DNA of 63,132 bases, taken from positions 1 through 63,132 of the forward strand of contig JANXTO010000101.1 in NCBI GenBank assembly GCA_025352365.1, read 5' to 3'. The DNA comes from Undibacterium sp. GTDB lineage: Bacteria; Pseudomonadota; Gammaproteobacteria; Burkholderiales; Burkholderiaceae_D. The notes under the pieces are model-generated. The model was not told the DNA's origin. It did not search any database and saw nothing but the letters and a program-made list of their open reading frames with translations. Position 1 is the stretch's first letter, and each line of letters opens with the position of its first letter. This document shows, in pieces, positions 13,967-56,404 of the stretch. A program made the translations under genes and the position numbers.

Positions 13967-14049
13967 ATACTCATGGTGAGTATATTTTAGTCGTCCATAT
14001 ATTAAATGGACAATAAGGTATATTTTGAAAAAATATCGGGGAGTATATT
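13967..14049 (+). repeat. Dispersed intergenic repeat, copy A
   Basis: 83 bp. Left end ATACTC-ATGGT-GAGTAT is a small hairpin, followed by ATTTTA, the GTCCAT/ATGGAC hairpin (7-base loop), ACAATAAGG, a variable AT-rich stretch, and the right end GGGGAGTATATT. Used here as the reference copy: copies at 37516, 43597, 52871 and 56323 align to it over their full length. Confidence 0.85.
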
Positions 14050-14064
14050 GATTTTGAGTGCATT

Positions 14065-14133
14065 GAACTTGCGCCAGATTAAGCGGAGAATCTTATCGGA
14101 CTCTTTTAGGATGGATGAGTTTTGCGCAAGTTC
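14065..14133. repeat. 69 bp element with 10 bp terminal inverted repeats
   Basis: GAACTTGCGC (14065-14074) and GCGCAAGTTC (14124-14133) are perfect inverted repeats. Inside lies a further AGATT/AATCT pair. Its arm resembles that of the neighbouring 91 bp element (TTTGCGCAAGTTCT against TTTGCGTAAGTCTT), so the two may be diverged relatives. Confidence 0.6.
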
Positions 14134-14151
14134 TGCGTCGATATCTCTAAT

Positions 14152-14242
14152 TAAGACTTACGCAAAATTGTCCCAGTAAAGCGCAGCGATGAAGAAATTA
14201 CTTCAGTGCTGCAAGAAGCTGGGCGGCTTTGCGTAAGTCTTA
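14152..14242. mobile_element. MITE-like 91 bp element with 15 bp perfect inverted repeats
   Basis: TAAGACTTACGCAAA (14152-14166) and its exact reverse complement (14228-14242) bound a 61 bp interior without coding capacity. The size and arms suit a miniature inverted-repeat element or an IS-end remnant. It ends 21 bp before the stop of the minus-strand quinone reductase and could also act as a transcriptional stop. Only one copy is in this window, so mobility is inferred. Confidence 0.55.
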
Positions 14243-14262
14243 TGCATGCAAAAAACTGAAAA

Positions 14263-15243
14263 TTACTTCTCAGGCTGTATAACAACTTTGCCGGTAACTT
14301 TGCGAGCGGCTATATCGTTCAACGCAATTGCCGTATCTTTTAATGCATAGCGCCCGGAAATTCGTGGTTTGATTTTGCCTCCAGCTAACCAGCCAATTAA
14401 TTCGCGCATTGCTGCCAGATTTGCTTTGGGTTCGCGTTTGGCAAATTCTCCCCAAAACACACCGACTAAAGAAGCGCCTTTGAGCAGCGTTAAGTTCAAT
14501 GGCAATTTCGGGATTTCACCATTTGCAAATCCCACGACCAAGTAACGTCCGCGCCAAGCAATGGAGCGGAATGCAGGTTCTGCATAGATGCCACCAACCG
14601 GATCGTAAATAACATCTGGCCCTTTGCCATCTGTTGCCACTTTGATTGCCTCACGCAGGTCTTGCGTACTGTAGTTGATCGTCAGATCGGCACCATGTTC
14701 TTTGCAAATAGCGAGCTTCTCATCGGACGAGGCCGCGGCGATTACGCGTGCCCCTAATGCTTTGCCGATTTCAATCGCTGCCAGGCCAACGCCACCGGCA
14801 GCGCCTAGCACCAACATCGTTTCTCCGGCTTTTAACTGAGCACGATCGACTACCGCGTGATGCGATGTGCCATAGGTGAGAGTAATCGCTGCTGCAGTAT
14901 CGAAATCCATCCCCGGTGGCATAGGCATCACCGCTTGCGCAGGTGCCACGACCTGCTGTGCGAATGCGCCGTGACCGATGAAGGCAATTACTTTATCGCC
15001 GACTTTGATATTGCTGACGCCATCACCGATAGCTCTTACCACGCCAGACAATTCGCTGCCTGGGGTGAATGGCAATTCTGGTTTAAATTGATATTTGTTT
15101 TGGATGATCAGCACATCTGGGAAGTTAACCCCGGCGGCTTTTACATCAATCACCACTTGTCCAGCGCCTGCAACAAGATCTGGTAACTCTTCTACGACCA
15201 AGGTATCTGGTAAACCCCAAGCTTTGCAAAGTACGGCTTTCAT
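14263..15243 (-). CDS. Zinc-independent NADPH:quinone oxidoreductase, MDR family
   Basis: 326 residues of the quinone-reductase branch of the medium-chain dehydrogenase/reductase family. Starts MKAVLCKAWG; contains GVNFPDVLIIQ, the PFTPGSELSGVV segment, the nucleotide-binding LGAAGGVG (146-153) and YDPVGG. The structural and catalytic zinc cysteines of alcohol dehydrogenases are absent, as expected for this branch. Likely reduces quinones or enones with NADPH in the cytoplasm; the substrate cannot be told. Monocistronic on the minus strand, divergent from surE. Confidence 0.88.
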   Translation of the reverse strand: MKAVLCKAWGLPDTLVVEELPDLVAGAGQVVIDVKAAGVNFPDVLIIQNKYQFKPELPFTPGSELSGVVRAIGDGVSNIKVGDKVIAFIGHGAFAQQVVAPAQAVMPMPPGMDFDTAAAITLTYGTSHHAVVDRAQLKAGETMLVLGAAGGVGLAAIEIGKALGARVIAAASSDEKLAICKEHGADLTINYSTQDLREAIKVATDGKGPDVIYDPVGGIYAEPAFRSIAWRGRYLVVGFANGEIPKLPLNLTLLKGASLVGVFWGEFAKREPKANLAAMRELIGWLAGGKIKPRISGRYALKDTAIALNDIAARKVTGKVVIQPEK

Positions 15244-15351
15244 GTATTTGTCTCCTCTTTAAAATAGTACGACCGTTTGATTTTACGATTATGCCGCAAA
15301 AATCCGACGCTTGTCTCAAATTACAATGTTGCATCGGTTAAAATGTTTCGT

Positions 15352-16101
15352 ATGAAAATCTTGATCAGTAATGACGATGGTTACCTCGCTCCTGGCATTG
15401 TCGCTTTGGCCGATGCATTAGCATCTATTGCCGACATTGTCGTGGTCGCGCCTGACAGCAATCGCTCCGGTAGTTCTAACGCCTTGACATTGGATCGACC
15501 CTTGTCAGCACAGCGCGCGTCGAATGGTTTTTATTTTGTGAATGGTACTCCCTCCGATTGCGTGCATATTGCGCTGACATCAATCATGCAAGAGAAGCCG
15601 GATTTGATCGTTTCTGGTATTAATCAGGGACAGAATATGGGGGACGATACTTTGTATTCTGGTACGGTAGCCGCCGCGACTGAGGGATATTTATTTGGCA
15701 TACCCGCCATCGCTTTTTCGCAAGTGGACAAAGGATGGTCACATCTTGAGGATGCGGCAAAAATAGCACTAAGCATGGTCAAGCAAGGTTTTGTCGCGCT
15801 GCCCAGACCCTATTTATTGAATGTGAATATCCCTAATTTGCCTATTTCGGATATTAAAGGGATGCGTGCCGCACGCTTGGGTAAGCGTCATATGTCCGAG
15901 CCTGTGATTAAAGCGCAAGATCCACATGGTCGTGATATTTATTGGATAGGTCCACCAGGTAAAGCAAAAGAGGCAGGCGAAGGCACAGATTTTTTTGTGA
16001 CAGCGCAAGGCTATGTATCCGTCACGCCTTTGCAAATTGATTTGACCAATACAAAACAACTATCGCAATTGCAAGACAATTTTGGTACGGGCGACGCATG
16101 A
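15352..16101 (+). CDS. surE: 5'/3'-nucleotidase SurE
   Basis: Metal-dependent nucleoside monophosphate phosphatase active in stationary phase. 249 residues from ATG 15352 ([11 protein letters not shown]), with the metal ligands D8, D9, the SGSSN serine and the asparagine of [12 protein letters not shown], then the [13 protein letters not shown] segment. In-frame starts upstream (15277, 15343) would add residues not found in the family. First gene of the surE-pcm-nlpD-rpoS block; overlaps pcm by 4 bp. Confidence 0.96.
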
Positions 16102-16985
16102 CCAAAAATGAAAAACGTTTTCCCTTGCAATTGTCTTCCGTGATGGACGGCGCTAAGCAGCAAACGCATCGTCAATTCACTTCAACGCATCTGGTAAAAA
16201 CAGCGACACCCCAGACCGCGACGCAGAATGCCGCCAAACATGGAGCGACTAAACAAGATGCGGCAAAAAATTCTCTCCGGTCATCGTCGCTCAATCCTAA
16301 TCCAACGACAAAATCTGATCAGACATCCTCCAACGTAGTGAGCTCTCGTCCTTTAGTCTCGGACGGTGTGCGGCGCGCAATGGTGGCACGTGTTGCTCAG
16401 CAAGGTGTTAAAGATCGTTTGGTATTGGCTGCGCTGGAGGCAATTCCACGCCACCTTTTTATTGAGTCTGGTATGTCAAGTCAGGCTTACGTTGATGCCT
16501 CGCTTCCGATTGGGTATCACCAAACGATTTCACAGCCGTATATCGTGGCGCGTATGATAGAAATTATGCGCAGTGATGGCAAACTCAATTGCGTTTTAGA
16601 AATCGGAACTGGCTGCGGCTATCAGGCTGCCGTATTGTCCTTGGTGGCAAAAGAGGTCTATTCGATTGAGCGGATTAAAGCACTGCACGAACTGGCTAAA
16701 AATAACCTGCGCCCCATGCGAATTGCAAATATTCGGTTGCATTATGGCGATGGTATGTTGGGCTTGCCTCAAGTTGCGCCATTTGACGGTATCATCTTGG
16801 CTGCTGCAGGTATGGAAGTGCCAAAGGCATTATTGGAGCAGCTAGCAATTGGTGGCCGCCTGATCGCACCAGTGGGTAGCACTAAACAAGTTTTACAATT
16901 AATTCAGCGTACCGCAAAACATGAGTGGCAAAGTTCGATACTTGAGCAATGTCATTTCGTCCCTTTACATCAAGGCGTCATCTAA
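16098..16985 (+). CDS. pcm: Protein-L-isoaspartate O-methyltransferase
   Basis: Repairs damaged L-isoaspartyl residues using S-adenosylmethionine. The catalytic part runs from about residue 90: [10 protein letters not shown], the substrate-site [19 protein letters not shown], motif [11 protein letters not shown] (167-176), and FDGIILAAA. The first 90 or so residues are an extra Ala/Gln/Thr/Lys-rich stretch not needed for the enzyme; the family is usually about 210 residues. Coupled to surE by a 4 bp overlap, which supports the long form, though no distinct later start can be excluded. Confidence 0.94.
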
Positions 16986-17022
16986 ATTTGATGAATCCAT
17001 TATTTAATTAATTGAATCTGCA

Positions 17023-18003
17023 ATGAGTATGAAGAAATTAAAGTTATTAATCACATTAGTCCCCGCAGTTGCTCTATCAGGTTTTATTACTGCTTGTAGT
17101 ACCACGCCCAATAATGCCCCGGTGATTGATCGCGGAAGTGACAGCATAAAAGCGGACTCCAAAGATGTTATGGACGTATCAAAAGTCGTGCCAAAACCAG
17201 CCGATACTCGCGGCACTTATGTTGTTAAGCGCGGCGATACACTATTCAGAATTGCTTTAGACAATGGGCAAAGTTATAGCGATCTGGTTGCATGGAATAA
17301 CTTAAAAAATCCTAATGATATTAAAGTAGATCAAGTTTTGCGCGTAGCGCCGCCAGATGGAACCACCTCTGTACAAACAGGTAGCGTCAATACCAGTGGT
17401 GTAGAGGTGAGGTCGCTTACGGCGGCAACAGTAAATCCATCAACCAATAAGACCAGTCCACGAGGTGATAAGCGTCCATATTCAGACGCCAATTTAGCTG
17501 AACTGCAAAAGCTTGATTCGACTGGCGCGGTGAGCCCTGCAGCTCCGGGCGCCGCTAAATCAGATATCGTGCCGCCTGCGGTAGTCGCTGTTCCTAAGCG
17601 AGATAAACCAATTGACGCTGCAACTCCAGAGAACGATGTGGTGGATTGGATCTGGCCAGCGGAAGGAAAAGTGATCGCCGGATTTGATGATGCAAAAAAT
17701 AAGGGTCTCGATATTTCAGGCAAACTGGGACAGAGTGTCATGGCTGCTGGCGCTGGCAAAGTAATGTATGCCGGTAACGGTATTCGTGGATATGGTAATC
17801 TTGTGATCATCAAGCATACAAGCACCTTGCTCTCTGCTTATGCTCACAATAAAACCATTTTGGTTGCTGAAGGACAGACTATTGTTAAAGGGCAGAAAAT
17901 TGCCGAGATGGGTGATTCTGATAGTGATACTGTGAAGTTGCATTTTGAAATCAGACAGCAAGGTAAGCCAGTTGATCCATCCAAATTTTTGCCGCATCAG
18001 TAA
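17023..18003 (+). CDS. nlpD: LysM/M23 lipoprotein NlpD, amidase activator
   Basis: Outer-membrane lipoprotein that in other bacteria activates the septal amidase AmiC. 326 residues: signal peptide with lipobox ending at Cys25, LysM peptidoglycan-binding domain about 69-112 (GTYVVKRGDTLFRIA), a variable linker, and a C-terminal M23 domain about 205-326. The M23 metal ligands are degenerate: NKGLDI in place of HxGxD and KLHFEIR in place of HxHFE, as in the non-catalytic activators. Followed by rpoS; in enterobacteria a main rpoS promoter lies inside nlpD, and the same may hold here. Confidence 0.94.
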   Translation: MSMKKLKLLITLVPAVALSGFITACSTTPNNAPVIDRGSDSIKADSKDVMDVSKVVPKPADTRGTYVVKRGDTLFRIALDNGQSYSDLVAWNNLKNPNDIKVDQVLRVAPPDGTTSVQTGSVNTSGVEVRSLTAATVNPSTNKTSPRGDKRPYSDANLAELQKLDSTGAVSPAAPGAAKSDIVPPAVVAVPKRDKPIDAATPENDVVDWIWPAEGKVIAGFDDAKNKGLDISGKLGQSVMAAGAGKVMYAGNGIRGYGNLVIIKHTSTLLSAYAHNKTILVAEGQTIVKGQKIAEMGDSDSDTVKLHFEIRQQGKPVDPSKFLPHQ

Positions 18004-18129
18004 TTAGTAATCGGTAACTAGAAACAATGCTAGAGCCAACGCTAGAATCAAGAGCAATCATTATTTGATTTTGGTTGGAAAATAATTAGTCAGCAAGTTC
18101 AAAATAGGATAAGTCGTTTAACTCATACT

Positions 18130-19179
18130 ATGCCCAATACTTCAACTAAACATCAACTGCAATCGCCTGAAACGGACGACGATCAAGATCAAGATGGTCT
18201 GGTTGATGCCAACGCTGAACGAACCAATCCATCAGACTTCTCTGAGGATGAGGTTGAAGAGGCTGAGGATGGGCAAAACGATAATCCGATTTCTTTAATC
18301 GTTGCTCCAATTGATGAGCTGAAAACAGTATTAGCTGCCGAGTTGTCGACCGATACGACGCAGCATTATTTGAACCAAATTGGCACTCGCCCATTGTTCT
18401 CTGTTGCAGAAGAATTGCACTACGCGACTTTGGCCAAGCAAGGTAATTTTGAAGCACGCCAAAAAATGATAGAGCACAATTTGCGGCTCGTTGTTTCTAT
18501 CGCTAAGCATTACATCAATCGCGGTGTCGCCTTGCTCGATATGATAGAGGAGGGTAATCTGGGTTTGATGCATGCGATTGATAAGTTTGAGCCTGAGCGC
18601 GGTTTTCGTTTTTCGACTTACGCCACATGGTGGATACGCCAGAGCATCGAGCGCGCCATCATGAACCAGGCGCGCACTATCCGTTTGCCTGTGCACATGG
18701 TGCGTGAACTGAACCAGATTTTACGTGCCAAATATCATCTGGAATCACAGCAGCATGACGGTCGTGATGCTGCGCTAGAAGATATCGCCCATCTGGTCGA
18801 CAGACCGCTGGATGAAGTGCAAGATATTCTTGCTTTGTCTGAGCATGCAACATCGCTAGATACGCCTCTGGATAATGATCCGCAATCTAGTTTGATGGAC
18901 ATGCTGCCAGGTGATAGTGATGACACACCGGATATTCGTGCAGAACAGCATGAGATGACTATTTTGGTCAGAGATTGGTTGTCTAAGCTGCCGGACAAGC
19001 AACGCATCGTCATCGTGCGTCGGTTTGGTCTCGATAATGATGATCCAGCAACGCTAGAGACCTTGGCGGATGAAATGGGTATTACACGTGAACGTGTGCG
19101 GCAAATTCAGCAAGAGGCGCTGATCAAGCTCAAGCGATCCTTCTCTTCACGTGGTGTAGGACGTGATGCGCTGCTGTGA
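18130..19179 (+). CDS. rpoS: RNA polymerase sigma factor RpoS
   Basis: Stationary-phase and general stress sigma factor, a member of the sigma-70 family. 349 residues with an acidic N-terminal tail of about 70 residues, then region 1.2 ([12 protein letters not shown]), region 2 with [20 protein letters not shown] and [11 protein letters not shown], regions 3 and 4 with the helix-turn-helix [18 protein letters not shown]. Position right after nlpD separates it from RpoD. No clean terminator follows. Confidence 0.96.
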
Positions 19180-19344
19180 TTTGCCTGACTGATTTGCTTT
19201 GGGCTGTACTGTAAGTAAAGTAATTTCTAGCTGTTTGCGGATCTGCTCCCAAGTTTCTACGCGCTTTCTCCGTAGTTTCTCCTATAATCCCGTTTTCCGA
19301 ATTAAACCTGATCGGCGTGATCTGTGCATCACGCCGCAATTATT

Positions 19345-20679
19345 ATGAATACTATTAATATCCGTTCTTTCGACATGGACGCACGTGGCGTTGGTCATCT
19401 GGAAAATGAAGATGGCACTCCAGGAAAAGTTGTTTTTGTTGAAGGAGCTTTGCCAGGTGAGGTAGTTGGCTTCAGTACATTCAAAAAGAAGGCGACCTGG
19501 GAAGCTGCCAATATGACGCAGTTGGTGCGCGAGTCGTCACAACGGGTTAAGCCTAAATGTGAATTTTTTGGCGTATGCGGCGGTTGCTCTATGCAGCACC
19601 TGGAGTCAAATGCACAAGTGGCGATGAAGCAGCGCGTGCTGGAAGATAATCTCTGGCATATTAGCAAGGTGAAAGCAGAGACGATGTTGCGGCCGATTTA
19701 TGGTCCGACTTGGGGTTACCGTTATCGCGCCAGGCTTTCTGTGCGTAATGTACATAAAAAAGGCATGGTCTTAGTCGGTTTTCATGAGAAAAAATCTCGC
19801 TATGTCGCCAATATGGAAACCTGCGAGATTTTGCCGCCGCATGTGTCTGCAATGCTCATGCCATTGCGTGATCTGATTTCGTCTTTATCGATTATTGAGG
19901 CGCTACCACAAATCGAGCTGGCGATAGGCGAGGGCGTAACCGCAATGGTATTGCGCATCATGGCGGCACTGACTGCCGAGGATGAAGTAAAGCTGAAGGC
20001 TTTTGCAGATCAATATCAAGTGCAATGGTGGTTGCAAACCAAAGGGCCAGAAACAGCTACCCCGTTTTATCCAGGGAAAAGTGAATTGCATTACTTATTA
20101 CCCGAGTTTGGTATAAAAATGCCATTTAAGCCGACTGATTTTACTCAGGTTAATCATCATATCAATCGCGTTCTGGTAGAACGCGCTCTGCGTTTGTTGG
20201 ATGTGCAAAAAGACGAGCGTATTGCCGACTTGTTTTGCGGTTTAGGTAATTTCACGCTGCCGATTGCAACTTTAGCAAAAGAAGTTGTGGGGATCGAGGG
20301 TAGCTCCACGTTGACAGAGCGCGCGATGGAGAATGCTCGTGCCAACGGATTAGAGGCGACGACTTCATTTGGTACACGTAATTTGTTTGAAGTTACTGCG
20401 CAAGATTTCGTTGCCTTGGGTAAGTTTGATCGCTTTTTGGTCGATCCCCCGCGCGATGGTGCGATGGCAGTTTGCCAAGCCCTGATCGATTTGGGCAGCT
20501 TAGCGCCAGAGTTGAAGCCTAAGCGTATTGTGTATGTGTCATGTAGTCCGTCTACGTTGGCACGTGATGCTGGCATGTTGGTCAATCAGGCCAGCTATCG
20601 CTTGAGTTTTGCTGGCGTCGTCAATATGTTCCCACACACGTCTCACGTAGAATCGATGGCAGTTTTTGATTTGGATTAA
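19345..20679 (+). CDS. rlmD: 23S rRNA (uracil-1939-C5)-methyltransferase RlmD
   Basis: Methylates U1939 of 23S rRNA. 444 residues from ATG 19345: N-terminal TRAM-like domain, iron-sulfur cysteines C72, C78, C81 (KCEFFGVCGGC), the SAM-binding LFCGLGNFTLPIA, DPPRDGA and the catalytic-cysteine motif VSCSPSTLARD. A GTG at 19324 is less likely. A TATAAT box at 19283-19288 lies 56 bp upstream but lacks a recognisable -35. Confidence 0.94.
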   Translation: MNTINIRSFDMDARGVGHLENEDGTPGKVVFVEGALPGEVVGFSTFKKKATWEAANMTQLVRESSQRVKPKCEFFGVCGGCSMQHLESNAQVAMKQRVLEDNLWHISKVKAETMLRPIYGPTWGYRYRARLSVRNVHKKGMVLVGFHEKKSRYVANMETCEILPPHVSAMLMPLRDLISSLSIIEALPQIELAIGEGVTAMVLRIMAALTAEDEVKLKAFADQYQVQWWLQTKGPETATPFYPGKSELHYLLPEFGIKMPFKPTDFTQVNHHINRVLVERALRLLDVQKDERIADLFCGLGNFTLPIATLAKEVVGIEGSSTLTERAMENARANGLEATTSFGTRNLFEVTAQDFVALGKFDRFLVDPPRDGAMAVCQALIDLGSLAPELKPKRIVYVSCSPSTLARDAGMLVNQASYRLSFAGVVNMFPHTSHVESMAVFDLD

Positions 20680-21029
20680 TTTAATACTGGGTGGGTGTAT
20701 TTAAAATTGTCCATAGAAACGCTGTATAATATGGCTAATTATGCATATACTCCCTGTAATATTAAAAAAATTTCCAGATTTAACGTTGACTTAGTTAACC
20801 AAGCTGATCATCCCATATTCTATTTTGCGGTTTTTGAACTCGCTTTTGGGGACAAGGAACCAATCTGATTTATGCTTTCGGCGCCCAAGTATTTATTTAA
20901 AAATAATTCTTGCAGGTAATTGTCTTTATTGGCAACTTACCTTAGGCTGGTCGTTTTTATGATAAAATCGAAGGTTAGATGAATTCTTGAAATTTTGTCT
21001 TAACCCTTTCATTTTATTGGAGTTTTTAG
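20680..21029. other. 350 bp gap between rlmD and ndk
   Basis: Holds a diverged copy of the dispersed repeat (20684-20754) and an imperfect palindrome GTTGACT-T-AGTTAAC near 20784-20798. No terminator or confident promoter is seen; ndk probably has a promoter in the AT-rich stretch around 20930-20970. Confidence 0.5.
20684..20754 (+). repeat. Dispersed intergenic repeat, diverged copy F
   Basis: 71 bp beginning 4 bp after the rlmD stop. The left end (ATACTG, GTGTATTTAAAATTGTCCAT) matches the reference copy; the right end carries ATATACTCCC, the inverse of the usual GGGAGTATAT. Either a rearranged or a strongly decayed member. Confidence 0.45.
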
Positions 21030-21455
21030 ATGGCTATCGAACGTACATTGTCTATTATTAAGCCTGACGCAGTTGCAAAAAACGTTATCGGTCAAATTGT
21101 CAGCCGCTTTGAAGCTGCTGGCTTGAAAGTAGTCGCAGCTCGCTTGACACAACTGTCCCGCGCTGAAGCAGAAGGTTTCTATGCAGTTCACGCTGCACGC
21201 CCGTTCTTCAAAGACCTAGTTGATTTCATGATCTCTGGCCCAGTTTTTGTTCAAGCATTAGAAGGCGAAGGCGCGATATTAAAAAATCGTGATCTGATGG
21301 GTGCAACAGATCCAAAGAAAGCAGAAAAAGGCACAATTCGTGCAGATTTCGCAGAATCAATCGACGCAAATGCAGTACATGGTTCCGATGCAGCTGAAAC
21401 AGCCGCCATCGAAATCGCTTACTTCTTCCCGGCGTTGAACGTGTACTCACGTTAA
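21030..21455 (+). CDS. ndk: Nucleoside diphosphate kinase
   Basis: Transfers the gamma-phosphate of ATP to other (d)NDPs through a phospho-histidine. 141 residues, the exact usual length; starts [17 protein letters not shown] and contains the active-site histidine in [18 protein letters not shown] precedes the ATG at good spacing. Followed by rlmN after 65 bp. Confidence 0.97.
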
Positions 21456-21520
21456 TCACAGTTTGTAATATGGTCTTGGTTTTGTAGTGATACCTAAGCA
21501 GGATGTGAAGGAAGATGCAT

Positions 21521-22678
21521 ATGACGGCTCTCACCAATTTGTTGGACCTGGATCCCGCGCAACTCGTCGCTTATTGCGGTGAGTTGGGTGAGAAGCCGTT
21601 TCGCGCCAAGCAATTGCAGCGCTGGATACACCAGTTCGGTGCCGGTAGTTTCGAAGAGATGAGCGATCTCGCAAAATCGCTAAGAGAAAAATTATCTACG
21701 CGAGCCTTCATTGCCGCTCCTGCGATCATCAGCGACCATACATCAACAGATGGGACGCGCAAATGGTTGTTGGATGTAGGGCAGGGCAATGCTGTAGAAG
21801 CAGTATTTATTCCCGAAGAGAATCGTGGAACCTTGTGCATCTCTACCCAGGCCGGTTGTGCAGTCAACTGCCGCTTTTGCTCAACGGGTAAGCAAGGATT
21901 TAATCGTAATTTAAGCGTTGGTGAAATTATTGGTCAACTTTGGATGGCTGAGTTTTTATTACGTAAAACTAAAGGTATAGCGCCGGGACCAAAAGGCGAA
22001 CGTCAAATTACTAACGTAGTAATGATGGGAATGGGCGAACCTTTATTGAATTTTGAGCCAACGGTCACTGCTTTGCGTCTGATGTTAGATGATAATGCCT
22101 ATGGTTTATCACGTCGTCGTGTTACGTTGTCTACCAGCGGTGTGGTGCCGATGATTGATAAGTTGTCCCAAGAGTGTGCAGTGGCGTTGGCAGTGTCTTT
22201 GCATGCCTCAAACGACACTCTGCGCGACAGCTTAATACCGTTAAATAAAAAATATCCGCTGCATGAATTAATGGCGGCTTGCAAGCGGTATTTGGATTAT
22301 GCCCCACGTGATTTTGTGACATTTGAATACTGCATGTTGGATGGCGTAAATGATACGGATCAACATGCTCGTGAGTTGGTGCAATTAGTTAAAAATGTTC
22401 CCTGTAAGTTGAACTTGATTCCGTTTAACCCTTTTCCGGAATCAGGTTTAAAACGTTCAGCCACTCCTCGTATAAAGGCTTTTGCCCAAGTGCTGATGGA
22501 TGCGGGATTAGTGACAACCATACGGAAGACGCGAGGCGATGATATTGATGCCGCCTGTGGGCAGTTAGCAGGTGAGGTTCAGGACAGAACGCGAGTGCAA
22601 GAACGTATGCAAAAAATGGCGGAATATCAAACCAAGTTCGGTAAAAATTTTGGCAAGATCGTGGAGATCACTCAGTGA
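21521..22678 (+). CDS. rlmN: Dual-specificity 23S rRNA/tRNA m2A methyltransferase RlmN
   Basis: Radical-SAM enzyme that makes 2-methyladenosine at A2503 of 23S rRNA and A37 of some tRNAs. 385 residues from ATG 21521, supported by AAGGAAG just upstream; ATG 21515 would sit on that site. Shows [11 protein letters not shown] for the 4Fe-4S cluster, [11 protein letters not shown], and the resolving-cysteine motif near the C-terminus (DIDAACGQL). Overlaps pilW by 4 bp. Confidence 0.96.
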
Positions 22679-24493: not shown

Positions 24494-24495
24494 GT

Positions 24496-25761: not shown

Positions 25762-25799
25762 CAAACGTATTTAGCTAATAAATAATTAGGTTGTAAAGT

Positions 25800-27161: not shown

Positions 27162-27173
27162 ACTTTATACAAA

Positions 27174-27839: not shown

Positions 27840-27851
27840 AAGGAGTAGTTC

Positions 27852-29000: not shown

Positions 29001-29006
29001 TACTAA

Positions 29007-37515: not shown

Positions 37516-37598
37516 AATATACTCCCCTAGATTTTCAATAAAAATGCTGTATTGTTCAATTAATCTATGGACGATTAAAATATACTCACTATCAGTAT
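37516..37598 (-). repeat. Dispersed intergenic repeat, copy B
   Basis: 83 bp on the minus strand. Read in reverse it starts ATACTGATAGTGAGTAT, continues ATTTTAATCGTCCATAGATT, and ends GGGGAGTATATT: the same length and block order as copy A. The hairpin arm opposite GTCCAT has drifted (TTGAAC). Confidence 0.85.
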
Positions 37599-42544: not shown

Positions 42545-42591
42545 TACTTTGTCTCTATATCGACATCTCTTTAACGGTGCTTCGATCTGTT

Positions 42592-42658: not shown

Positions 42659-42713
42659 CATCTCCCTTTTGGTTTCTGCCATTTTCATCTTTTTATTTTT
42701 TACAGATCACATC

Positions 42714-43457: not shown

Positions 43458-43596
43458 TCTGAGGCGATTATTCTATTTTATAGGACTACGCAAAATCAAT
43501 AATGTGTTTTTGCTTTTCTTCTTGAGCACAAATATTTTTGTGACCCATACACTAGAAGTTGTCAGTCAAAAATGGCATTGAATTACATGTCGAATT

Positions 43597-43681
43597 AATA
43601 TACTCCCCCTTAAATTCGTCAAAATAGCCCTATTGACCAAGTTATTATTAGACATTTAAATATACTATATGGGAGTATATT
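43597..43681 (-). repeat. Dispersed intergenic repeat, copy C
   Basis: About 85 bp on the minus strand between convergent cysE and lpxH. It shows the terminal inverted repeat most clearly: AATATACTCCC (43597-43607) and GGGAGTATATT (43671-43681) are exact inverse copies. Between them are AGTATATTTAAATGTC and the AATAGGGCTATTTT stretch seen in similar form in the other copies. Confidence 0.85.
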
Positions 43682-43695
43682 TAAGATGAGAGTAT

Positions 43696-44505: not shown

Positions 44506-44534
44506 TATCGACTAATTTCTTTTCGTTTAATGAT

Positions 44535-45023: not shown

Positions 45024-45081
45024 GATAGTCCTTGATAAGTAAAGATGAAGAGGTTTTATTAGGTAGATACTTGATTGTATA

Positions 45082-45753: not shown

Positions 45754-45769
45754 AGTTTTCCTTGGCTGG

Positions 45770-48072: not shown

Positions 48073-48278
48073 AGTAAATGGACTTGGTTTCATTAGTGAA
48101 CAGAGGAACATCGCTTCGGCAATGTTATACTGAGTATAAAGCGACATCTTAACAAAGATGCGCACAAAATGGGTTTTTGACACGCTTTAGCTTTAACAAG
48201 TAAACATGCCGACAACGGAGTTTATTTGCTTAATGCCATTGCGCGCAATCATCTTGCAAAACAATTTACACGCAGCTC

Positions 48279-49670
48279 ATGACTAAACAAAAAATATACA
48301 ACACCCTGACTCGCGAAAAGCAAATCTTCGTCCCGATTGAACCTGGCAAAATTCGTATGTATGTATGCGGTATGACGGTTTATGACTATTGTCATTTAGG
48401 GCATGCGCGCGTGATGGTCGTATTTGATATGGTGCAACGCTGGTTGAGAAATTCTGGTTTTGATGTGACCTATGTACGCAATATCACAGATATCGACGAC
48501 AAAATCATCAAACGCGCAGTTGAGAACGGTGAAACAATTTCGCAACTGACCGGTCGTTTTATCAATTATATGAATGAGGATGCTGAGGCCTTGGGTGTGC
48601 AGGCGCCTGATTATGCGCCGCGGGCAACGCAATATATTCCACAAATGCTTAATTTGATCGGCAAGTTGGAAGCAAATGGTTTGGCGTATAAAGCAACTGA
48701 TGGCGATGTTAATTATTCTGTTCGTGACTTTGCTGGGTATGGCAAATTATCGGGTAAGTCATTAGACGATCTGCGCGCTGGTGAGAGAATCGATATTAAT
48801 ACCGGTAAACGTGACCCTTTGGATTTCGTGCTTTGGAAGTCTGCTAAAGAAACCGAACCTGAAGAAGTGAAATGGCAATCGCCATGGGGAACGGGACGAC
48901 CGGGCTGGCATATTGAATGCTCAGCAATGGCAGGCGATTTATTGGGTGAGCAATTTGATATCCATGGTGGCGGGCAAGATCTGCAGTTCCCTCATCATGA
49001 AAACGAAATTGCCCAGTCTGAGGGCGCTCATCAGCATACTGTCGTTAATTATTGGATGCATAACGGGTTTGTGCGTTTGGACAACGAAAAAATGTCTAAA
49101 TCGTTGGGCAACTTTTTTACGATCCGTGATGTTCTAAAAAAATATGACCCGGAAGTGGTTCGTTTCTTCATATTAAGAGCGCATTATCGTAGCCCACTAA
49201 ATTATTCTGATGCGCATTTGGATGATGCAAAATCAGCTTTGACTCGTTTGTACAATGCTTTAAAAGAAATACCAGGTGACGCATTACCTCTGGATCTGAG
49301 TGATGCCTATGCCGAACGTTTTGCTGATGCAATGTTGGATGATTTCAATACGCCAATTGCAATCTCGGTCTTGTTTGACTTGGCAAATGACCTGAATAAA
49401 ACGAAATCCCCTATACTTGCGCGACAATTAAAAGCCATAGCCGGAACGATAGGCTTGCTACAACGCTCGCCAAGCGAGTATTTGCATGCATCTCCCCAAA
49501 CTTTGAATGACAACGATATGACCCAGATCCAGTCAAGGATTGATGCGCGTACTGCGGCTAAAATAGTAAAGAATTTTGCTGAATCCGACCGACTTCGTAA
49601 CGAACTTTTAGCTGAGGGCATTATTCTTGAGGACAAAGCTGGTGGTTTGACCGAATGGCGCAGGGCATGA
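48279..49670 (+). CDS. cysS: Cysteinyl-tRNA synthetase
   Basis: Class I synthetase that charges tRNA-Cys. 463 residues, with [17 protein letters not shown] (zinc cysteine C30 and the HIGH-like HLGH 39-42), GWHIECSAM and [15 protein letters not shown] for zinc binding and KMSKSLGN for ATP. Divergent from the minus-strand TPR gene across a 206 bp spacer. Confidence 0.97.
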
Positions 49671-50323
49671 GTGTTATCGAAAAAATAGGTCTTTCATCTA
49701 AAGATATGCCGCAAGTACCAGCATATTGGGAGAGTGCAAAAGTTGAGTTGATGAAGCGCGATAGAATTATGCGCAAATTGATCCCTCAATTTGGCGATTT
49801 GTATTTAATTGGTCGCGATGACCCTTTTACAACCCTCACTCGTTCTATTTTAGCTCAGCAAATTTCGGTAAAATCCGCAGATGCTTTATGGCAACGCTTT
49901 CTCGAACTTTGCCCAAAATGTACATATGTACAAGTGTTGAAAGTCGGAAGCGATAAATTACTTGCCTGCGGCTTGTCCAAACGCAAAACAGAATATATTC
50001 TTGACCTTGCTGAGCATTTTAAAGAGAAAAGACTGCACGTCGACAAATGGGTGGAGATGGCCGACGAAGACGTCATTTCGGAGTTAATACAAATTCGGGG
50101 CATAGGACGCTGGACAGCAGAGATGTTTTTGATATTTAATCTGCTCCGTCCGAATATTTTGCCTTTGGATGATCCCGGATTACTTAAAGGCATTAGTACT
50201 AACTATTTTTCCGGTGAGCCCGTTTCTCGCAGTGATGCAAGAGAGGTGGCTGCAAACTGGGGCACTTGGTGCACGGTGGCAACTTGGTATTTATGGCGCA
50301 GCCTTGATCCGGTAGCAGAATAA
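49667..50323 (+). CDS. DNA-3-methyladenine glycosylase II (AlkA-type HhH-GPD)
   Basis: Base-excision repair glycosylase for alkylated purines. 218 residues: [17 protein letters not shown], helix-hairpin-helix with [16 protein letters not shown], and the catalytic aspartate in [11 protein letters not shown]. Lacks the N-terminal domain of E. coli AlkA, so it is the short form. ATG 49667 overlaps the cysS stop (ATGA); ATG 49655 is an alternative. Confidence 0.9.
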
Positions 50324-50395
50324 TATTTTAAAGTTAAGAAACAGCGGCTTGGTTTTGACTAATGTTGAGATCAATGTTGTCAATTGGGAGTCACA

Positions 50396-51370
50396 ATGAC
50401 TAAAACGACATTTCTGGGGTTTGAGCAATCTATTGCAGAGCTCGAAACAAAAATTGAAGAATTGCGCTTTGTGCAAGATGATTCTGCAGTAGATATTTCT
50501 GAAGAGATCGACCGGCTCTCTAAAAAGAGCCAGATGTTGACCAAAGATATTTATGCAAAACTCACTCCTTGGCAAGTTTCACAAATTTCTCGTCATCCGC
50601 AACGTCCTTATACGATGGACTACGTGAATCAGATATTCACTGATTTCCATGAGTTACACGGCGACCGTAGTTTTGCAGATGATCAGGCAATTGTTGGTGG
50701 ATTGGCTCGTTTTAACGGACAGTCTTGCATGGTAATCGGGCATCAAAAAGGACGCGACACAAAAGAACGCGCAATGCGTAACTTCGGTATGCCGAAGCCA
50801 GAAGGCTACAGAAAAGCCATGCGTCTGATGAAGCTGGCTGAGAAGTTCAATATTCCCGTATTTACTTTTATCGATACCACAGGTGCCTGGCCTGGGATTG
50901 ACGCTGAAGAACGCGGACAGTCTGAGGCTATTGGCCACAATTTGTATGTGATGGCAGAGTTAAAAGTGCCACTGATCGCAACTATTATCGGCGAGGGTGG
51001 TTCTGGTGGCGCACTGGCACTGGCGGTTGGCGATGCAGTATTGATGCTGCAATATGCAACTTATTCAGTGATTTCGCCTGAGGGCTGCGCTTCTATTTTA
51101 TGGAAAACTTCTGACCGTGCTGCAGATGCGGCTGAGGCATTAGGTCTTACAGCGCATCGATTAAAGGCGATGGGTTTGATCGATAAAATTATCAATGAGC
51201 CTTTAGGCGGCGCGCATCGCGACCCTAAGCAAATGTGTGCTTTCGTAAAGCGTGCATTAGCAGATACTTTGCGTCAATTTCAAGGTGTTAAAACCAAAGA
51301 TTTATTGGTAGCACGTCATGAAAAATTGATGAGCTATGGTAAGTTCAAGGAAACTAAACTGTCCGAATGA
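50396..51370 (+). CDS. accA: Acetyl-CoA carboxylase carboxyltransferase subunit alpha
   Basis: With AccD transfers carboxyl from biotin to acetyl-CoA in fatty acid synthesis. 324 residues from ATG 50396, preceded by GGGAG; contains [42 protein letters not shown] and [14 protein letters not shown]. Coupled to tilS by a 4 bp overlap. Confidence 0.97.
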
Positions 51371-52764
51371 CGGCGACCAAAAATGAGCGTACGTTGGCTT
51401 ATCATTTTGAACGCACGCTTAACGAGATACTCTCTAAAAATGCGTTGTCTTTGCCGGAACAAGGCTTGGCCGTTGCTTACAGCGGCGGTTTAGATTCTTC
51501 AGTCTTACTTGCTTTGGTAAATCAGTTTTGCCAGAAGCATAAAATCCCACTTTTTGCATTTCATGTACACCATGGTTTAAGCATTAATGCTGATGCTTGG
51601 CTCAAACATTGCGCATCGGTTTGTGCTTTGTCAGGTGTTACTTTTGCTGGCGTCAAAGTCATAGTGGATCGGCAAAGCAAGGATGGTATTGAATCCTCTG
51701 CACGTGAGGCACGCTATAAAGCGCTAGGTGCTTTATGCCAAGAACGACAACTACCTATTATCCTGACGGCGCATCATCAAGACGATCAGGCCGAAACTGT
51801 ATTGCTACAGTTATTACGTGGCTCTGGTGTTGCTGGGCTATCTGGGATGGATTTATCTAATAAAGCACCTAAATTGTTAGGGTCGGATACCGTCATGTTG
51901 GCCAGGCCCTTGCTTAGAGTGACGCGACAAAGCTTGTTAGACTATTCCGAGGAAGCAACGATTGCTTATGTCGACGATGAATCTAATGCAGATCAGCGTT
52001 ATGCCCGAAATGCCTTACGACATCAGGTGATGCCCGTCTTATCGGTGATTTCGCCAGGCTACACTGAACGCTTGGCAAGAAGTGCCTCCCACGCCCAGTC
52101 AACAAACCGATTACTGACGGAATTAGCGCGGCAAGATAGAAGTGTCTGCGAAATAGATGGCGCATTGGATATTAGTTTGTTGCGCAATTACAGCGTTGAC
52201 CGCATCGATAATTTATTGCGATTTTGGCTGGGAGAGCAGAGCGTGCGCATGCCAACTACCGCCAGGCTAACAGAAATGCGACATCAGCTTTTTGATGGGC
52301 GAGACGACGCAAAAATTAGTGTCTTTCACGATACGTTGGGGATTCATCGATACAAGAATAAAATTTACGCTTGCCCGAAAGATGTTGTAAAAGGCAGTGA
52401 GATAACTCCAATACAATTTAGTTGGAATGTCGAGCCCAGCATCCCATTTCCTAGTTACGGTGGAACCTTATATTTTCAAGAGTGTTCTACGGGAGTTGAT
52501 CTGACTTGGTTAAAGCAACAAGTTTTGACTATACATCCTCGCCAAGGTGGTGAACGCTTGAAGTTGGCATTTAATCGGCCAACCAGAGATATCAAAAGTC
52601 ATTACCAAACCTTGAAAATCCCATTTTGGCAACGAGAACGTTTGCCATTTATATCTGCTGGAAGCAAACTCTTATTTGCTGCTGGTGTCGGCATGGAGTC
52701 CGCATTTTTCACAGACGATGCAAACATAAAAATCTGTATCAAGTGGGAATCTGATGCTAATTAA
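51367..52764 (+). CDS. tilS: tRNA(Ile)-lysidine synthase TilS
   Basis: Changes the wobble cytidine of the AUA-reading tRNA-Ile to lysidine, an essential step. 465 residues: N-terminal PP-loop ATPase domain with [22 protein letters not shown] and [19 protein letters not shown], then the TilS substrate-binding and C-terminal domains ([10 protein letters not shown]). Overlaps accA, as is common in Burkholderiales. Confidence 0.96.
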
Positions 52765-53089
52765 ACGAGCACGTAAAAGAATCATGGTTTTAGAATGAAG
52801 CACTAAAATATAAGCAGTGTTTATTTTGGCGGATGCTGTTGTCGGTGCGTAAATTTAGATACTTAAATTTATACTCCCGGTATGTATATTAAGTTATCCA
52901 TATAATCATTGAGGTAGCAGCCATCTTTTGGAATTGTGATGGGGAGTATAGTTAGTTTTCCTTAGATTTAATGCGCGAAAGCTATCTAAATTTTCCTGAT
53001 CTCATCTAACTGATTTAAAAAAATTACGTAGTTTTAAATACTATTGCTATCAATTAGACAATATTAATAATGATAATGACGAGTATGAA
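52765..53089. other. 325 bp gap between tilS and dnaQ
   Basis: Contains dispersed repeat copy D (52871-52952), flanked by AT-rich sequence. No terminator with a clear stem is seen after tilS. Confidence 0.5.
52871..52952 (+). repeat. Dispersed intergenic repeat, copy D
   Basis: 82 bp, plus orientation. Starts ATACTCCCGGTATGTATATT, has TATCCATATAATCATTGAGG where copy A has the GTCCAT hairpin, and ends GGGGAGTATAGT. The ends TATACTCCC and GGGAGTATA are inverse copies. Confidence 0.8.
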
Positions 53090-53818
53090 ATGACAAATAT
53101 GAAGCGACAAATTGTTTTAGATACGGAAACAACAGGTCTCAACGCCAGAACTGGCGACAGAGTGATTGAGATTGGTTGCGTAGAATTAATTAACCGCAAG
53201 CTAACTGGCAATAATTTTCATCGCTACATTAATCCTGAACGTGACTCGGAAGAGGGCGCGTTAGCCGTTCATGGATTGACAACAGAGTTCTTAAGCGACA
53301 AGCCTAAATTTGCAGAAATTGTCCAAGAGTTTTGCGCTTATATAAAAGATGCAGAAGTTATTATCCATAACGCACCGTTTGACGTCGGTTTTCTTAATGC
53401 CGAGTTTCTCCGCCTTAATTTGCCGGTTTTTACCGACTATGTAGAGCAAGTTACTGACACATTAGTACAGGCAAAGGAGTTGCATCCAGGAAAACGTAAT
53501 TCTCTCGATGCCCTGTGTACTCGCTATGACGTTTCTAATTCCCACCGAAAACTCCACGGAGCATTATTAGATGCCGAGTTATTGGCGGATGTGTTCCTGG
53601 CGATGTCTCGTGGGCAAAATAGTTTTGCTATAGAGACTGAAGTGGAAGAAAAAGTGTCTGTGGCAGAAGAGATACTTCCAGACATTCCGCTGCAAGGCGT
53701 TATTGTTGTTTGCGCCTCTGATGATGAACTTGCTGCACATGAAACCTTGTTGGTCGGTTTAGGTAAAGAAGTGCGTGGCCAAAGTATTTGGCATTCAAAT
53801 AGTCAAACAGCAGAATAA
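53090..53818 (+). CDS. dnaQ: DNA polymerase III epsilon subunit (proofreading exonuclease)
   Basis: 3'-5' exonuclease that proofreads for the replicative polymerase. 242 residues: Exo I VLDTETTG (D11, E13), Exo II HNAPFDVGFLN, Exo III HGALLDAELLADVFL, and a C-terminal tail that would bind the polymerase alpha subunit. Monocistronic between two gaps. Confidence 0.95.
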   Translation: MTNMKRQIVLDTETTGLNARTGDRVIEIGCVELINRKLTGNNFHRYINPERDSEEGALAVHGLTTEFLSDKPKFAEIVQEFCAYIKDAEVIIHNAPFDVGFLNAEFLRLNLPVFTDYVEQVTDTLVQAKELHPGKRNSLDALCTRYDVSNSHRKLHGALLDAELLADVFLAMSRGQNSFAIETEVEEKVSVAEEILPDIPLQGVIVVCASDDELAAHETLLVGLGKEVRGQSIWHSNSQTAE

Positions 53819-53904
53819 ATCTCTGCATTGACTGCAATTTTTAATTGCATATGATTATATTTTCAACTTTTGTCAGTAGTTCATCCTTCCACAATTCCAA
53901 AACC

Positions 53905-53945
53905 ATACAAATTAATAATAAAAAATCATTAATTTGTATGGTTTT
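53905..53945 (+). terminator. Probable terminator after dnaQ
   Basis: CATACAAATTAAT (53905-53917) pairs perfectly with ATTAATTTGTATG (53929-53941), 13 bp with an 11-base loop, then TTTT. The stem is AT-rich. A weaker TGCAAT/ATTGCA hairpin lies 80 bp earlier. Confidence 0.65.
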
Positions 53946-54226
53946 CGGCATGTTTTGTTGCAAGCAAGCGATTTCTTCCAAAATATTTTTCAATTTTTTA
54001 CTAAAGTTTTAGATTTTTGCGTCGTTAAACATACGTAAGTAAATAAAAAAATATTTTTAATAAACCCTAAAGTTATTGATTTCGGTGCCGTTAATAATAA
54101 TGAAGATTGAGTAATATCAATTATTTTTTACTTAAGTTCTTGATTTAATTGAAAAAATTATTTTTTTAAAAAATAATAAAAATCAAAAATTCTTTTCGAA
54201 TTCTTTCTAAAAGAAATCAAACATAG

Positions 54227-54255
54227 CTTGTAGGAAAAACTCCTACGAGTTTTTT
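54227..54255 (+). terminator. Terminator-like hairpin in the flhDC leader
   Basis: CTTGTAGGA (54227-54235) pairs with TCCTACGAG (54241-54249), 9 bp with one G-T pair, 5-base loop AAAAC, followed by TTTTTT (54250-54255). It lies 120 bp before the flhD start and 409 bp after dnaQ. It either ends an unseen small transcript or acts as an attenuator of flhDC. Confidence 0.75.
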
Positions 54256-54375
54256 ATGCTCTTCCTCATCTTAAATACCTCTTCCTGCCTATACTCCGGT
54301 ATTTTTCTTGCATCCACAATGTATCTCACTGGCAACGAACTCTGTGCTGGGTTAAACAAGATGGAGGGTAGAAAA

Positions 54376-54693
54376 ATGACACCGAACGATATGATGGCTG
54401 AAATTCGCGACGCTAACTTAAGTTATCTGATGCTCGCTCAGCAAATGATTCGTGCTGACAAAGCTACTGCGATATTTCGTTTAGGCATAGCGAAAGAAAT
54501 CGCTGACCTGATTGAAGGGTTGAACAACGCACAGATTCTTAAGCTTGCTGGCTCTAACATGATGCTTGCTCGCTTTAGATTTGAAGACAGCGCCATTTTG
54601 TGCATGTTGACAAATTATAATAAAGAACGCGCCTTGGCACATTCTCACGCTGCAATTTTAATGGCTGGACAAGCTGTTGAAGAAATTCATTAA
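54376..54693 (+). CDS. flhD: Flagellar transcriptional activator FlhD
   Basis: Half of the FlhD4C2 master activator of flagellar genes. 105 residues from ATG 54376, chosen because GGAGGG stands 8 bases upstream and MTPNDMMAEIRDANLSYLML matches the family start; the in-frame extension from 54256 starts inside the leader. All-helical with the conserved LAQQMIRADKATAIFRLGI stretch. Followed after 55 bp by flhC. Confidence 0.95.
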   Translation: MTPNDMMAEIRDANLSYLMLAQQMIRADKATAIFRLGIAKEIADLIEGLNNAQILKLAGSNMMLARFRFEDSAILCMLTNYNKERALAHSHAAILMAGQAVEEIH

Positions 54694-54748
54694 AGAGATT
54701 CATTAGTTTCTGACTATTTAATAATTTTTCAACACTGAGGTGATCAAA

Positions 54749-55300
54749 ATGGCTAGCAAAAGCGTAGTAAATGAAGCACACGAAATTCGGTTGGCAATTG
54801 ATTTAGTCAATCTTGGCGCACGTTTGCAGCTTTTGGAGTCCGAAACGAGTTTGTCTCGTGAGCGATTGTTGAAAATATATAAAGAGTTAAAAGGTGTATC
54901 ACCTCCTAAAGGGATGCTGCCTTTTTCTACAGAATGGTTTATTACTTGGCAGCCAAATATCCATTCATCGTTATTTATGAATATTCACAAGTATTTGCAT
55001 GATCATGCGGATGTCAGTGGTATTGAGGCTGTTGTCAAAGCTTATCGACTTTATTTAGAACAAACACCGCTTCAAGCCGGTGATGAGCCAGTGCTGTCAT
55101 TGACGCGCGCTTGGACCTTGGTGAGGTTTTTTGATGCGAAAATTCTGAAATTCACAAAATGCAACAAATGTGGCGGGCAATTTGTTGCACACACATTGGA
55201 TTTGCATGATGATTATGCATGTGGTTTATGCCATGTCCCTTCACGAGCAGGCAAGACTAAAAGAGCGCGTGAATTAGACTCAATAGCGATGGTTGCATAA
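54749..55300 (+). CDS. flhC: Flagellar transcriptional activator FlhC
   Basis: DNA-contacting partner of FlhD. 183 residues from ATG 54749, with GAGGTGATC upstream. Conserved LVNLGARLQLLESET and the C-terminal zinc site C138, C141, C158, C161 (KCNKCGG and ACGLC). A methyltransferase gene starts 24 bp later, so the operon may extend beyond flhC. Confidence 0.96.
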   Translation: MASKSVVNEAHEIRLAIDLVNLGARLQLLESETSLSRERLLKIYKELKGVSPPKGMLPFSTEWFITWQPNIHSSLFMNIHKYLHDHADVSGIEAVVKAYRLYLEQTPLQAGDEPVLSLTRAWTLVRFFDAKILKFTKCNKCGGQFVAHTLDLHDDYACGLCHVPSRAGKTKRARELDSIAMVA

Positions 55301-55324
55301 TGCAGACGATTTTTCGGAGCCTTT

Positions 55325-56128
55325 TTGAACCTAAGGTCAAAGCAAACAAACGAAAATGATATTTCTTTGGCGGGTAAGCCATTGCTCCCGCCTGCCTCGC
55401 AGTCGTTATTGATACAGATTTTTTCCTTCCTTCTTTGCCTCCTCATTACTTTTTTTGTAGGCGTCAGCTTCAAAAAAAATATTCCTCCAATTATCATCAT
55501 TTTTGCGCAAGCAATTGCTGCCTGTTGTTTTTCATATTGGCGAAAAATGGATTGGTGGTGGTGGATTATTCACTTCCTCTTTCCCCTTGCTGTCTTCGTA
55601 CTCTTGGCCTTTGATATTCCACGTTATTACTATTTATGTGGTTTTATTTTTTTGGCTTTACTTTTTTGGAGTACGTTTCGCACGCAGGTGCCGTATTGCC
55701 CATCTAAATCCTCTTTGTTGCCGACGTTATTTGAGTTATTGCCAGACAGACCTGTCCATTTTGTTGATGTTGGCAGTGGGCTGGGCGGCTTGGTTCTCAA
55801 ATTGGCGCAAGTAAGGCGGGATAGTTTTTTTTATGGTGTTGAAATCGCGCCATTGCCTTGGTTTATCAGTTACTTAAGAGCGAAATTTAATCGAGCCAAA
55901 GTTGAGTTTTTATTCCGTAGCTACGAGAGAATTGATTTGAACCAATTCGATGTTGTATTTGCTTATCTTTCGCCTGCTGCAATGCCATCTCTTTGGGAGA
56001 AAGTGCGGAAAGAAATGACGCCAGGGTCATTACTGCTTAGCTATGAATTTATAGTGCCGAATGTTGCTCCCGACTTGTGTATAAATAAAAATCCTAATGA
56101 TCCAACGCTATATGTATGGCGCATATAA
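55325..56128 (+). CDS. Membrane-anchored class I SAM methyltransferase
   Basis: 267 residues. The start is TTG 55325: CGGAG lies 5 bases upstream and no ATG or GTG exists in frame before the flhC stop. Residues 28-118 form about four transmembrane segments; 130-267 are a Rossmann methyltransferase domain with motif I VDVGSGLGG (147-155), an acidic motif II residue (E173), and FDVVFAYLSP. The layout recalls the membrane-bound FAM173-type lysine methyltransferases, but substrate is unknown. The position between flhC and motA suggests a motility role; not proven. Confidence 0.75.
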   Translation: MNLRSKQTNENDISLAGKPLLPPASQSLLIQIFSFLLCLLITFFVGVSFKKNIPPIIIIFAQAIAACCFSYWRKMDWWWWIIHFLFPLAVFVLLAFDIPRYYYLCGFIFLALLFWSTFRTQVPYCPSKSSLLPTLFELLPDRPVHFVDVGSGLGGLVLKLAQVRRDSFFYGVEIAPLPWFISYLRAKFNRAKVEFLFRSYERIDLNQFDVVFAYLSPAAMPSLWEKVRKEMTPGSLLLSYEFIVPNVAPDLCINKNPNDPTLYVWRI

Positions 56129-56322
56129 TAGTAATCATGTAATGTATTCCTCAGGCAATACTCAATTGCTTTTAAGCTTCAAGAAAATAGTGCAGAGCTG
56201 CTAAGAATAAAATATTTGGCTTATCCAACAGCTTAAAGTGGTGAGAAATAAACGTCTCTTTATGTAAATTTTTCCTACCTTTTGCGTTATTGTTGTTTGA
56301 ACTTTGATTGTGATCGGTTATG

Positions 56323-56404
56323 GTACTCCTAGGTAGTATATTTTATTGTCCAGGTAATAATTGGACAGTAAGGCGTTTTTAATAAAAATAATGGGGAGTA
56401 TATT
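56323..56404 (+). repeat. Dispersed intergenic repeat, copy E
   Basis: 82 bp, plus orientation. GTACTCCTAGGTAGTATATT, TTATTGTCC, an intact TGTCCA/TGGACA hairpin, then CAGTAAGGCG, an AT-rich stretch and GGGGAGTATATT. Closest to copy A. Confidence 0.85.

Follow-up and report, generated by a model that had tools for sequence, protein, structure and literature searches.

Many dispersed palindromic sites served by a single host protein are known from the Noc, SlmA, and MatP systems. To our knowledge, repressors of the CsoR/RcnR type are known only as local switches for metals or formaldehyde. The RcnR operator is given as TACT-G6-N-AGTA, with spacings of 6–9 for type-1 operators and with tandem sites (PMC3902906, PMC7055735), and bacterial interspersed mosaic elements (BIMEs) and repetitive extragenic palindromes (REPs) are described as binding IHF, gyrase, and Pol I (PMC2817692). 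Here we describe a family of intergenic repeats of about 80 bp present in a 63,132-nucleotide stretch of DNA from Undibacterium sp., a member of the Burkholderiales (GenBank assembly GCA_025352365.1, contig JANXTO010000101.1, positions 1 to 63,132), the whole of which is referred to as the window. Some Undibacterium are estimated to carry several hundred copies of this element. Judged by the titles listed under the genus name Undibacterium, no paper among them concerns its repeats, and the main text of PMC12306157 names neither Undibacterium nor Ramlibacter.

From sequence comparisons, we regard it as an even chance that the element is a pair of operators kept by selection, i.e., a two-site binding element for one DNA-binding protein. 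The likeliest candidate for the binder would be a protein of the CsoR/RcnR family (PF02583).

Results

Anatomy of the Element

Each element consists of a palindromic site L (ATACT-N6/7-AGTAT) and a half-site R, which reads GGGGAGTAT in elements of type I and has the inverse sequence, ATACTCCCC, in elements of type II. The end boxes are inverted repeats in type I and direct repeats in type II, of which we collected 52 copies. The spacer of site L has a GC content of 0.74–0.86; in Undibacterium, CCCCCC is its commonest form in type I (23 of 168 copies) and GGGGGG in type II (9 of 49). A run of at least four G or C residues was present in the L spacers of 84 of 168 type I copies, 28 of 49 type II copies, and 12 of 30 copies from Ramlibacter sp. 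H39-3-26.

The gap between L and R (d) falls into narrow classes, although wider ranges were permitted; many of the collected copies had been retrieved with a profile or a pattern. It measured 52–55 in 168 of the 171 collected type I copies of Undibacterium, 45–48 in 49 of the 52 type II copies, and 44–46 in all 30 Ramlibacter copies; the three copies of type II that fall outside this range are located in PF02583 promoters and are discussed below. We also scanned the window together with four long contigs of the same genome, allowing up to two mismatches over the 19 box positions and any d from 25 to 74. Among the 39 matches obtained, 30 were of type I with d = 52–54 and five of type II with d = 46–47, while three type II copies had d = 57 and one match was odd. 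A d of 57 corresponds to one extra helical turn and was found in three copies of the genome containing the window (G000) and in one copy each of the genomes G034 and G028.

When converted into distances between the centres of L and R, the classes amount to 62.5 bp (type I), 62.7 bp (type II), and 53.5 bp (Ramlibacter); at 10.5 bp per turn, these are 5.95, 5.97, and 5.09 turns, respectively. By the same arithmetic, two lone type I copies with d = 64 (L183) and d = 45 (L334) lie at about 6.9 and 5.1 turns. The right flank of type II elements, ATACTCCCC-nn-ATTTT, mirrors the AAAAT-nnn-GGGGAGTAT of type I, and in the flank profiles R has a second, weak half, located on the side expected for either orientation. 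Since the two flanks mirror each other, R is seemingly one slot used both ways, and both orientations of R appear to occupy a single slot about 62.5 bp (6.0 turns) from L.

Conservation of the Copies in Place

The copies are old, and their boxes are kept by selection in place while the interior drifts. Between G000 and a sister species (G015), an ortholog was found for 18 of 18 copies (six from the window and 12 from contig C329). With one split copy left out, 4 of 306 box positions had changed compared with 97 of 902 interior positions (Fisher test, 6e-9); since the copies were picked in G000, about half of the box changes are hidden, and a corrected test on all 18 copies yielded p = 0.008. 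Flanking DNA had changed at 739 of 8933 positions with the split copy and at 604 of 8442 without it, so that the interior drifts at least at the flank rate and can be called neutral in that one pair. The genomes G034 and G028 share 13 of 13 copies, in which 0 of 234 box positions, 37 of 621 interior positions, and 860 of 6320 flank positions differed (corrected p = 0.0008). Comparison in the reverse direction, largely over the same loci (14 copies), gave 1 of 252 for the boxes and 40 of 674 for the interior (corrected p = 0.004). The interior of this second pair evolves more slowly than its flanks and holds no indels where 4.6 were expected (P = 0.0096); slippage of the spacer by 1 bp was common (5 of 14).

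The split copy is the G015 ortholog of C329:21919–21998 of G000 (L398–L403). It is interrupted by a 1.1-kb insertion with a repeated CCA at both sides, and the insertion contains an open reading frame (ORF) whose resemblance, we presume, is to IS30. There is precedent for the insertion of such sequences into repeats, namely ISPpu9 in REPs. Separately, at about position 57460 of the window, G015 (stretch L122) contains some 1.4 kb of extra DNA with a 380-aa ORF that by appearance encodes a transposase; this DNA is absent from the window.

Two gaps trace individual copies across more distant species. Copy C of the window (43597–43681, minus strand; type I, d = 53), with site L at 43662–43678 and half-site R at 43600–43608, is located in the convergent gap between cysE and lpxH. 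G015, G011, G026, G016, G014, and G006 carry the element there as well, oriented in the same way. Its boxes contain no mismatch in G015 and G011 and one in 19 positions in G026, G016, and G014; in G006, all boxes are kept with a spacer of 8. In the more distant of these species the interiors have been replaced. G022, which has one profile match genome-wide, possesses the cysE/lpxH gap without the element.

The second gap lies between a nagB-II-like gene and a gene for a solute-binding protein (PF01547). The product of the former contains a SIS domain, and its best NCBIfam match is NagB-II, under the cut-off of that model. This gap harbors the sole type I profile match of five genomes (G004, G019, G027, G032, and G035); exact type II matches, the PF02583 promoter site aside, number two in G019, one in G035, and none in G004, G027, and G032. 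Among the 23 genus genomes having the solute-binding gene, 15 carry the element in the gap, with at most one mismatch in 19 positions, d = 53–55, and one orientation throughout; the remainder comprises a decayed copy with d = 54 in G060 and seven genomes without the element. Since all 15 copies share one orientation, repeated insertion is not an easy source for them. In the G060 copy (L413), box 1 (ATGCT) and box 3 (AGCAT) have changed complementarily while box 2 is unchanged. The idea that recognition had changed in the G060 lineage was rejected, as the altered pattern has only one exact match in 39 genomes.

A CsoR/RcnR-Type Protein as Candidate Binder

Site L possesses the grammar of a type-1 operator, with a TACT/AGTA inverted repeat, a spacing within 6–9, and a G/C tract. 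This likeness had been recorded before we came upon three species in which a PF02583 gene is preceded by an L site (L368, L371, and L373; G035, G027, and G032). The site reads ATACTC[G/A]GTAG[T/C]AGTAT in these genomes, and the flank past it varies among the three species while the site itself is constant. The encoded protein (104 aa; 59.5 bits, E = 4e-16) was recovered in a search of the collected ORFs. We take PF02583 as a lead to the putative binder.

Abundance, Distribution, and Genomic Context

With copy A of the window as the sole query against its own genome, 40 matches with E < 1e-14 were obtained, copies A and B included, together with two further weak matches on the reverse strand; these 42 matches are those among the best 40 of 333 first-look candidates that were scored. 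A profile built from 33 copies matched at least 150 places of this genome, its source copies among them. The sequence-only reading that preceded this study had named a lack of further copies as the result that would speak against a family; such an outcome did not arise. The contig scan covered 335,340 bp, and the reversed-sequence control produced no match. Extrapolation from its 39 copies gives about 470 copies per 4.0 Mb if these sequences are typical of the genome, an estimate probably on the upper side given that the four contigs were chosen by length from those in which copies had already been seen. Eight of these 39 copies are of type II, as are 11 of 15 in G034; exact type II matches number 74 in G034, 68 in G028, 24 in G000, and zero in Ramlibacter.

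A pattern scan of one genome per species (84,980 species) matched 69 stretches, eight of them from Ramlibacter sp. H39-3-26, the sole carrier outside Undibacterium in that scan, and 61 from genomes named as Undibacterium or as Burkholderiales metagenome-assembled genomes. A looser pattern matched 4 of 399 Burkholderiales genomes, which were all the genus members in that sample. The type I profile of the genus found matches in 23 of 39 genus genomes, at least five in 16 of them and one in seven. The Ramlibacter strain contains 35 exact copies of 70–72 bp; they have the same ends as the Undibacterium elements and another interior. More generally, interiors are similar inside one genome and different between genomes, forming genome-specific families. 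This implies that copying, perhaps of a mobile kind, occurred before the species pairs split.

Marking of replichores or macrodomains was rejected, since the 72 G015 copies among the matches listed occupy all ten tenths of the chromosome on both strands. A phage origin was likewise discarded: the stretches matched in IMG/VR, 10 by the type I pattern and 49 by that of type II, were by eye mostly chance or coding matches, with many of them falling within groups of near-identical viruses. Two contigs of uncultivated viruses (L418 and L436) contain several closely spaced, clustered sites of the ATACTCCC / GGGAGTAT type. Two others (L432 and L433) carry a 74-bp type II-like element in two forms. 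Its L contains a long G run and its R is followed by C runs; this element may be a distant relative.

We inspected the surroundings of 68 copies from G000, G034, and G028 stretches, using our own gene calls. Four overlap predicted ORFs; the others lie in co-directional (41), convergent (18), and divergent (5) gaps, compared to 33.9, 11.3, and 18.8 expected from gap length (p = 4e-4), a count into which G034/G028 orthologs enter twice. The earlier description of a dispersed intergenic family with its ends under selection and its middle drifting is supported, with a bias to gaps adjoining gene 3' ends. Relative to transcription, 24 copies have the same and 17 the opposite orientation; in a larger, selected set, the numbers are 43 and 44.

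Copies in the Window

The window contains six copies, all of them intergenic when the listed ORFs are taken as genes. The five copies that had been reported from inspection of the letters, A to E, lie at the positions then given and align across the length claimed. Copy A (13967–14049, plus strand) is a type I element with d = 54 and no box mismatch; its site L, ATACT-N7-AGTAT, occupies 13967–13983 and its half-site R, GGGGAGTAT, which was found by box scan and motif count, 14038–14046. Immediately upstream of it, at 13914–13939, we noted by eye a hairpin and T run resembling an intrinsic terminator. Copy B (37516–37598, minus strand) is also of type I with d = 54 (L at 37582–37598, R at 37519–37527). 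Copies D (52871–52952; L at 52871–52887, R at 52941–52949) and E (56323–56404; L at 56323–56339, R at 56393–56401) are on the plus strand and are type I elements with d = 53 and one box mismatch each. All L and R positions, including those of copies C and F, derive from the box scan.

A sixth copy, F, had been described as a diverged relative at 20684–20754. It is real, but is better read as a representative of the second architecture: at 20684–20755 (plus strand), it is a type II element with d = 46 and two box mismatches, with L at 20684–20700 and the inverted half-site R, here ATACTCCCT, at 20747–20755. The orthologous site in G015 is a full match to R. The location of the copies in convergent (A and C) or co-directional gaps (B, D, E, and F) is as originally described. 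The motif GGGGAGTATA, with up to one mismatch, occurs nine times in the window; 1.40 occurrences were expected and the maximum in 100 shuffles was six.

Discussion

Among the functions that the sequence-only reading had offered for the repeats, protein binding seems to us the best fit. Binding to L and R on the same face of the helix would jointly explain the conservation of the boxes, the spacing classes, the two orientations of R, and the drifting interior. The binder would probably be one sequence-specific protein, dimeric or tetrameric, acting at both sites. Site R may represent a slot with the geometry of L in which a single strong half, GGGGAGTAT, can face either way. With the centres of L and R about six turns apart (five in Ramlibacter), the bound units would come to lie on the same helix face, where they could touch, loop, or wrap the intervening DNA. 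Hundreds of such pairs, mostly beside gene 3' ends, might provide dispersed anchoring or insulating sites in a BIME-like role, while a few, such as that between the nagB-II-like and solute-binding-protein genes, could be regulatory.

Several observations weigh against paired operators. The likeness of interiors within a genome requires a copying mechanism, which selection alone does not supply. The number of interior indels between G000 and G015 (two, with 3.3 expected) reveals no difference, and across 174 copies the interiors on average fold better than shuffled sequences, with a mean z of −0.82. The complementary change of box 1 and box 3 in G060 hints at pairing. For one type I copy, L214 with d = 56, the distance comes to about 6.2 turns, and the partner half of R (AAAAT) is weak, so that we infer the position of the slot centre. 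As to the identity of the binder, PF02583 was detected in 3 of 472 collected sequences, all from element-poor genomes, in a search of these collected sequences rather than of the whole element-rich genomes or of Ramlibacter, and the apparent R box at the three PF02583 promoters is coding sequence.

The repeats could also be miniature inverted-repeat transposable elements (MITEs), i.e., non-autonomous transposons whose conserved ends are recognized by a transposase provided in trans while the interior drifts freely. We consider this unlikely. Conserved ends around a free interior, the inverted ends of type I, the genome-specific interior families that imply copying, and the occurrence in one Ramlibacter of a family that shares the ends and differs in the interior all fit such elements. 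However, the end boxes of type II are direct, so that terminal inverted repeats do not characterize the family as a whole; close relatives display no insertion polymorphism (18 of 18 and 13 of 13 copies are present in the sister species), and element-poor genomes retain intact boxes in place. No target site duplication (TSD) stood out in 168 + 49 + 30 copies, tested with left offsets of 0–4, right offsets of 0–5, and lengths of 2–6, 8, and 9: the highest z was 2.33 in 210 tests for type I and lower for the other sets. Nor did we see a transposon or transposase with matching ends, as had been proposed; Y1_Tnp was the sole transposase family sought, no DDE family was included, and genomes were not read whole. 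Because a TSD signal is missing and type II elements have no inverted ends, a MITE that moves today is unlikely, and movement in trans, one option of the initial proposal, is not supported for the present.

We judge it still more improbable that the elements act as hairpins in a structured RNA at gene 3' ends, serving as a terminator or exonuclease block, and RNA folding or termination is thus less favored here than it was in the sequence-only reading. The 3' bias of the gaps, the folding of the interiors mentioned above, and the single complementary double change in G060 agree with an RNA function, as do four type I interiors from U. rivi and U. aquatile (L175, L196, L247, and L259) that by eye resemble terminator hairpins. 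Yet 18 position tests of box 1 against the other two boxes gave no clear covariation, the lowest p values (0.028 and 0.043) both belonging to a single position outside the boxes, and a stem pairing box 1 with either box 2 or box 3 was for this reason set aside as improbable. RNAalifold predicted zero pairs in one set; in the other it predicted five, none of which shows a double change. Moreover, the orientation of the copies with respect to transcription is near even, copy A is situated past a separate terminator-like hairpin of its own (by eye), and Rfam matched only tRNA in the window.

Spread of REP/BIME-type repeats by a REP-associated tyrosine transposase (RAYT; Y1_Tnp) is very improbable and mostly refuted by our survey of Y1_Tnp loci: although the family is of high copy number, intergenic, and 3' biased as such repeats are, and an element lies about 125 bp past the end of the one Y1_Tnp gene of G000, on one side only, a type I element occurs within about 1.5 kb at just 2 of 30 Y1_Tnp loci examined, Y1_Tnp is present in 38 of 39 genus genomes including some without profile matches, the only Y1_Tnp match of Ramlibacter has no element beside it, and on inspection the alignments contain no GTAG or CGTC tag at the hairpin foot. 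That single Ramlibacter gene (L269) is located between inverted repeats of the GGGGTCAG type, an arrangement similar to the Y1 genes flanked by terminal inverted repeats that are described in PMC3733652.

A bolder scenario, which we hold to be rather doubtful, is that a DNA-wrapping repressor of the CsoR/RcnR type became a chromosome-wide architectural protein in some Undibacterium, where it would act through several hundred sites at gene ends that are paired and helically phased, and stayed an ordinary regulator in element-poor sister lineages. Most bacterial intergenic repeats are difficult to sort into selfish DNA and working sites; the boxes, the spacing and orientation classes, and the in-place copies with replaced interiors make this question testable here. 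If a protein binds, the elements offer a simple and countable system for chromosome-wide binding to paired sites; if they are mobile, they are an exception to the rule of inverted ends.

The elements resemble bacterial MITEs in being short and repeated, with conserved ends and a variable interior, but differ in that part of the family is without inverted ends, neither TSD nor recent movement was seen, and the ends are kept in place. With the BIME/RIB repeats of E. coli, in which a bound spacer separates paired REPs, they share high copy number, intergenic location, 3' bias, and two recognition parts, with protein binding established on the BIME side. In contrast to these, the Undibacterium elements have no REP hairpin, GTAG tag, or flanked RAYT gene; R can face either way, the spacing is close to whole turns, and the interior is not conserved between species. 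Noc, SlmA, and MatP sites are also palindromic, numerous, and dispersed, whereas the sites described here are paired and phased, and the listed G015 copies are spread over the entire chromosome. Type-1 operators of CsoR/RcnR repressors have the same TACT/AGTA inverted repeat, a spacer of 6–7 with G or C runs, and, for RcnR, a tandem arrangement; while such operators are few and located at promoters, the Undibacterium sites number in the hundreds, lie near gene 3' ends, and have a half-conserved partner six turns away.

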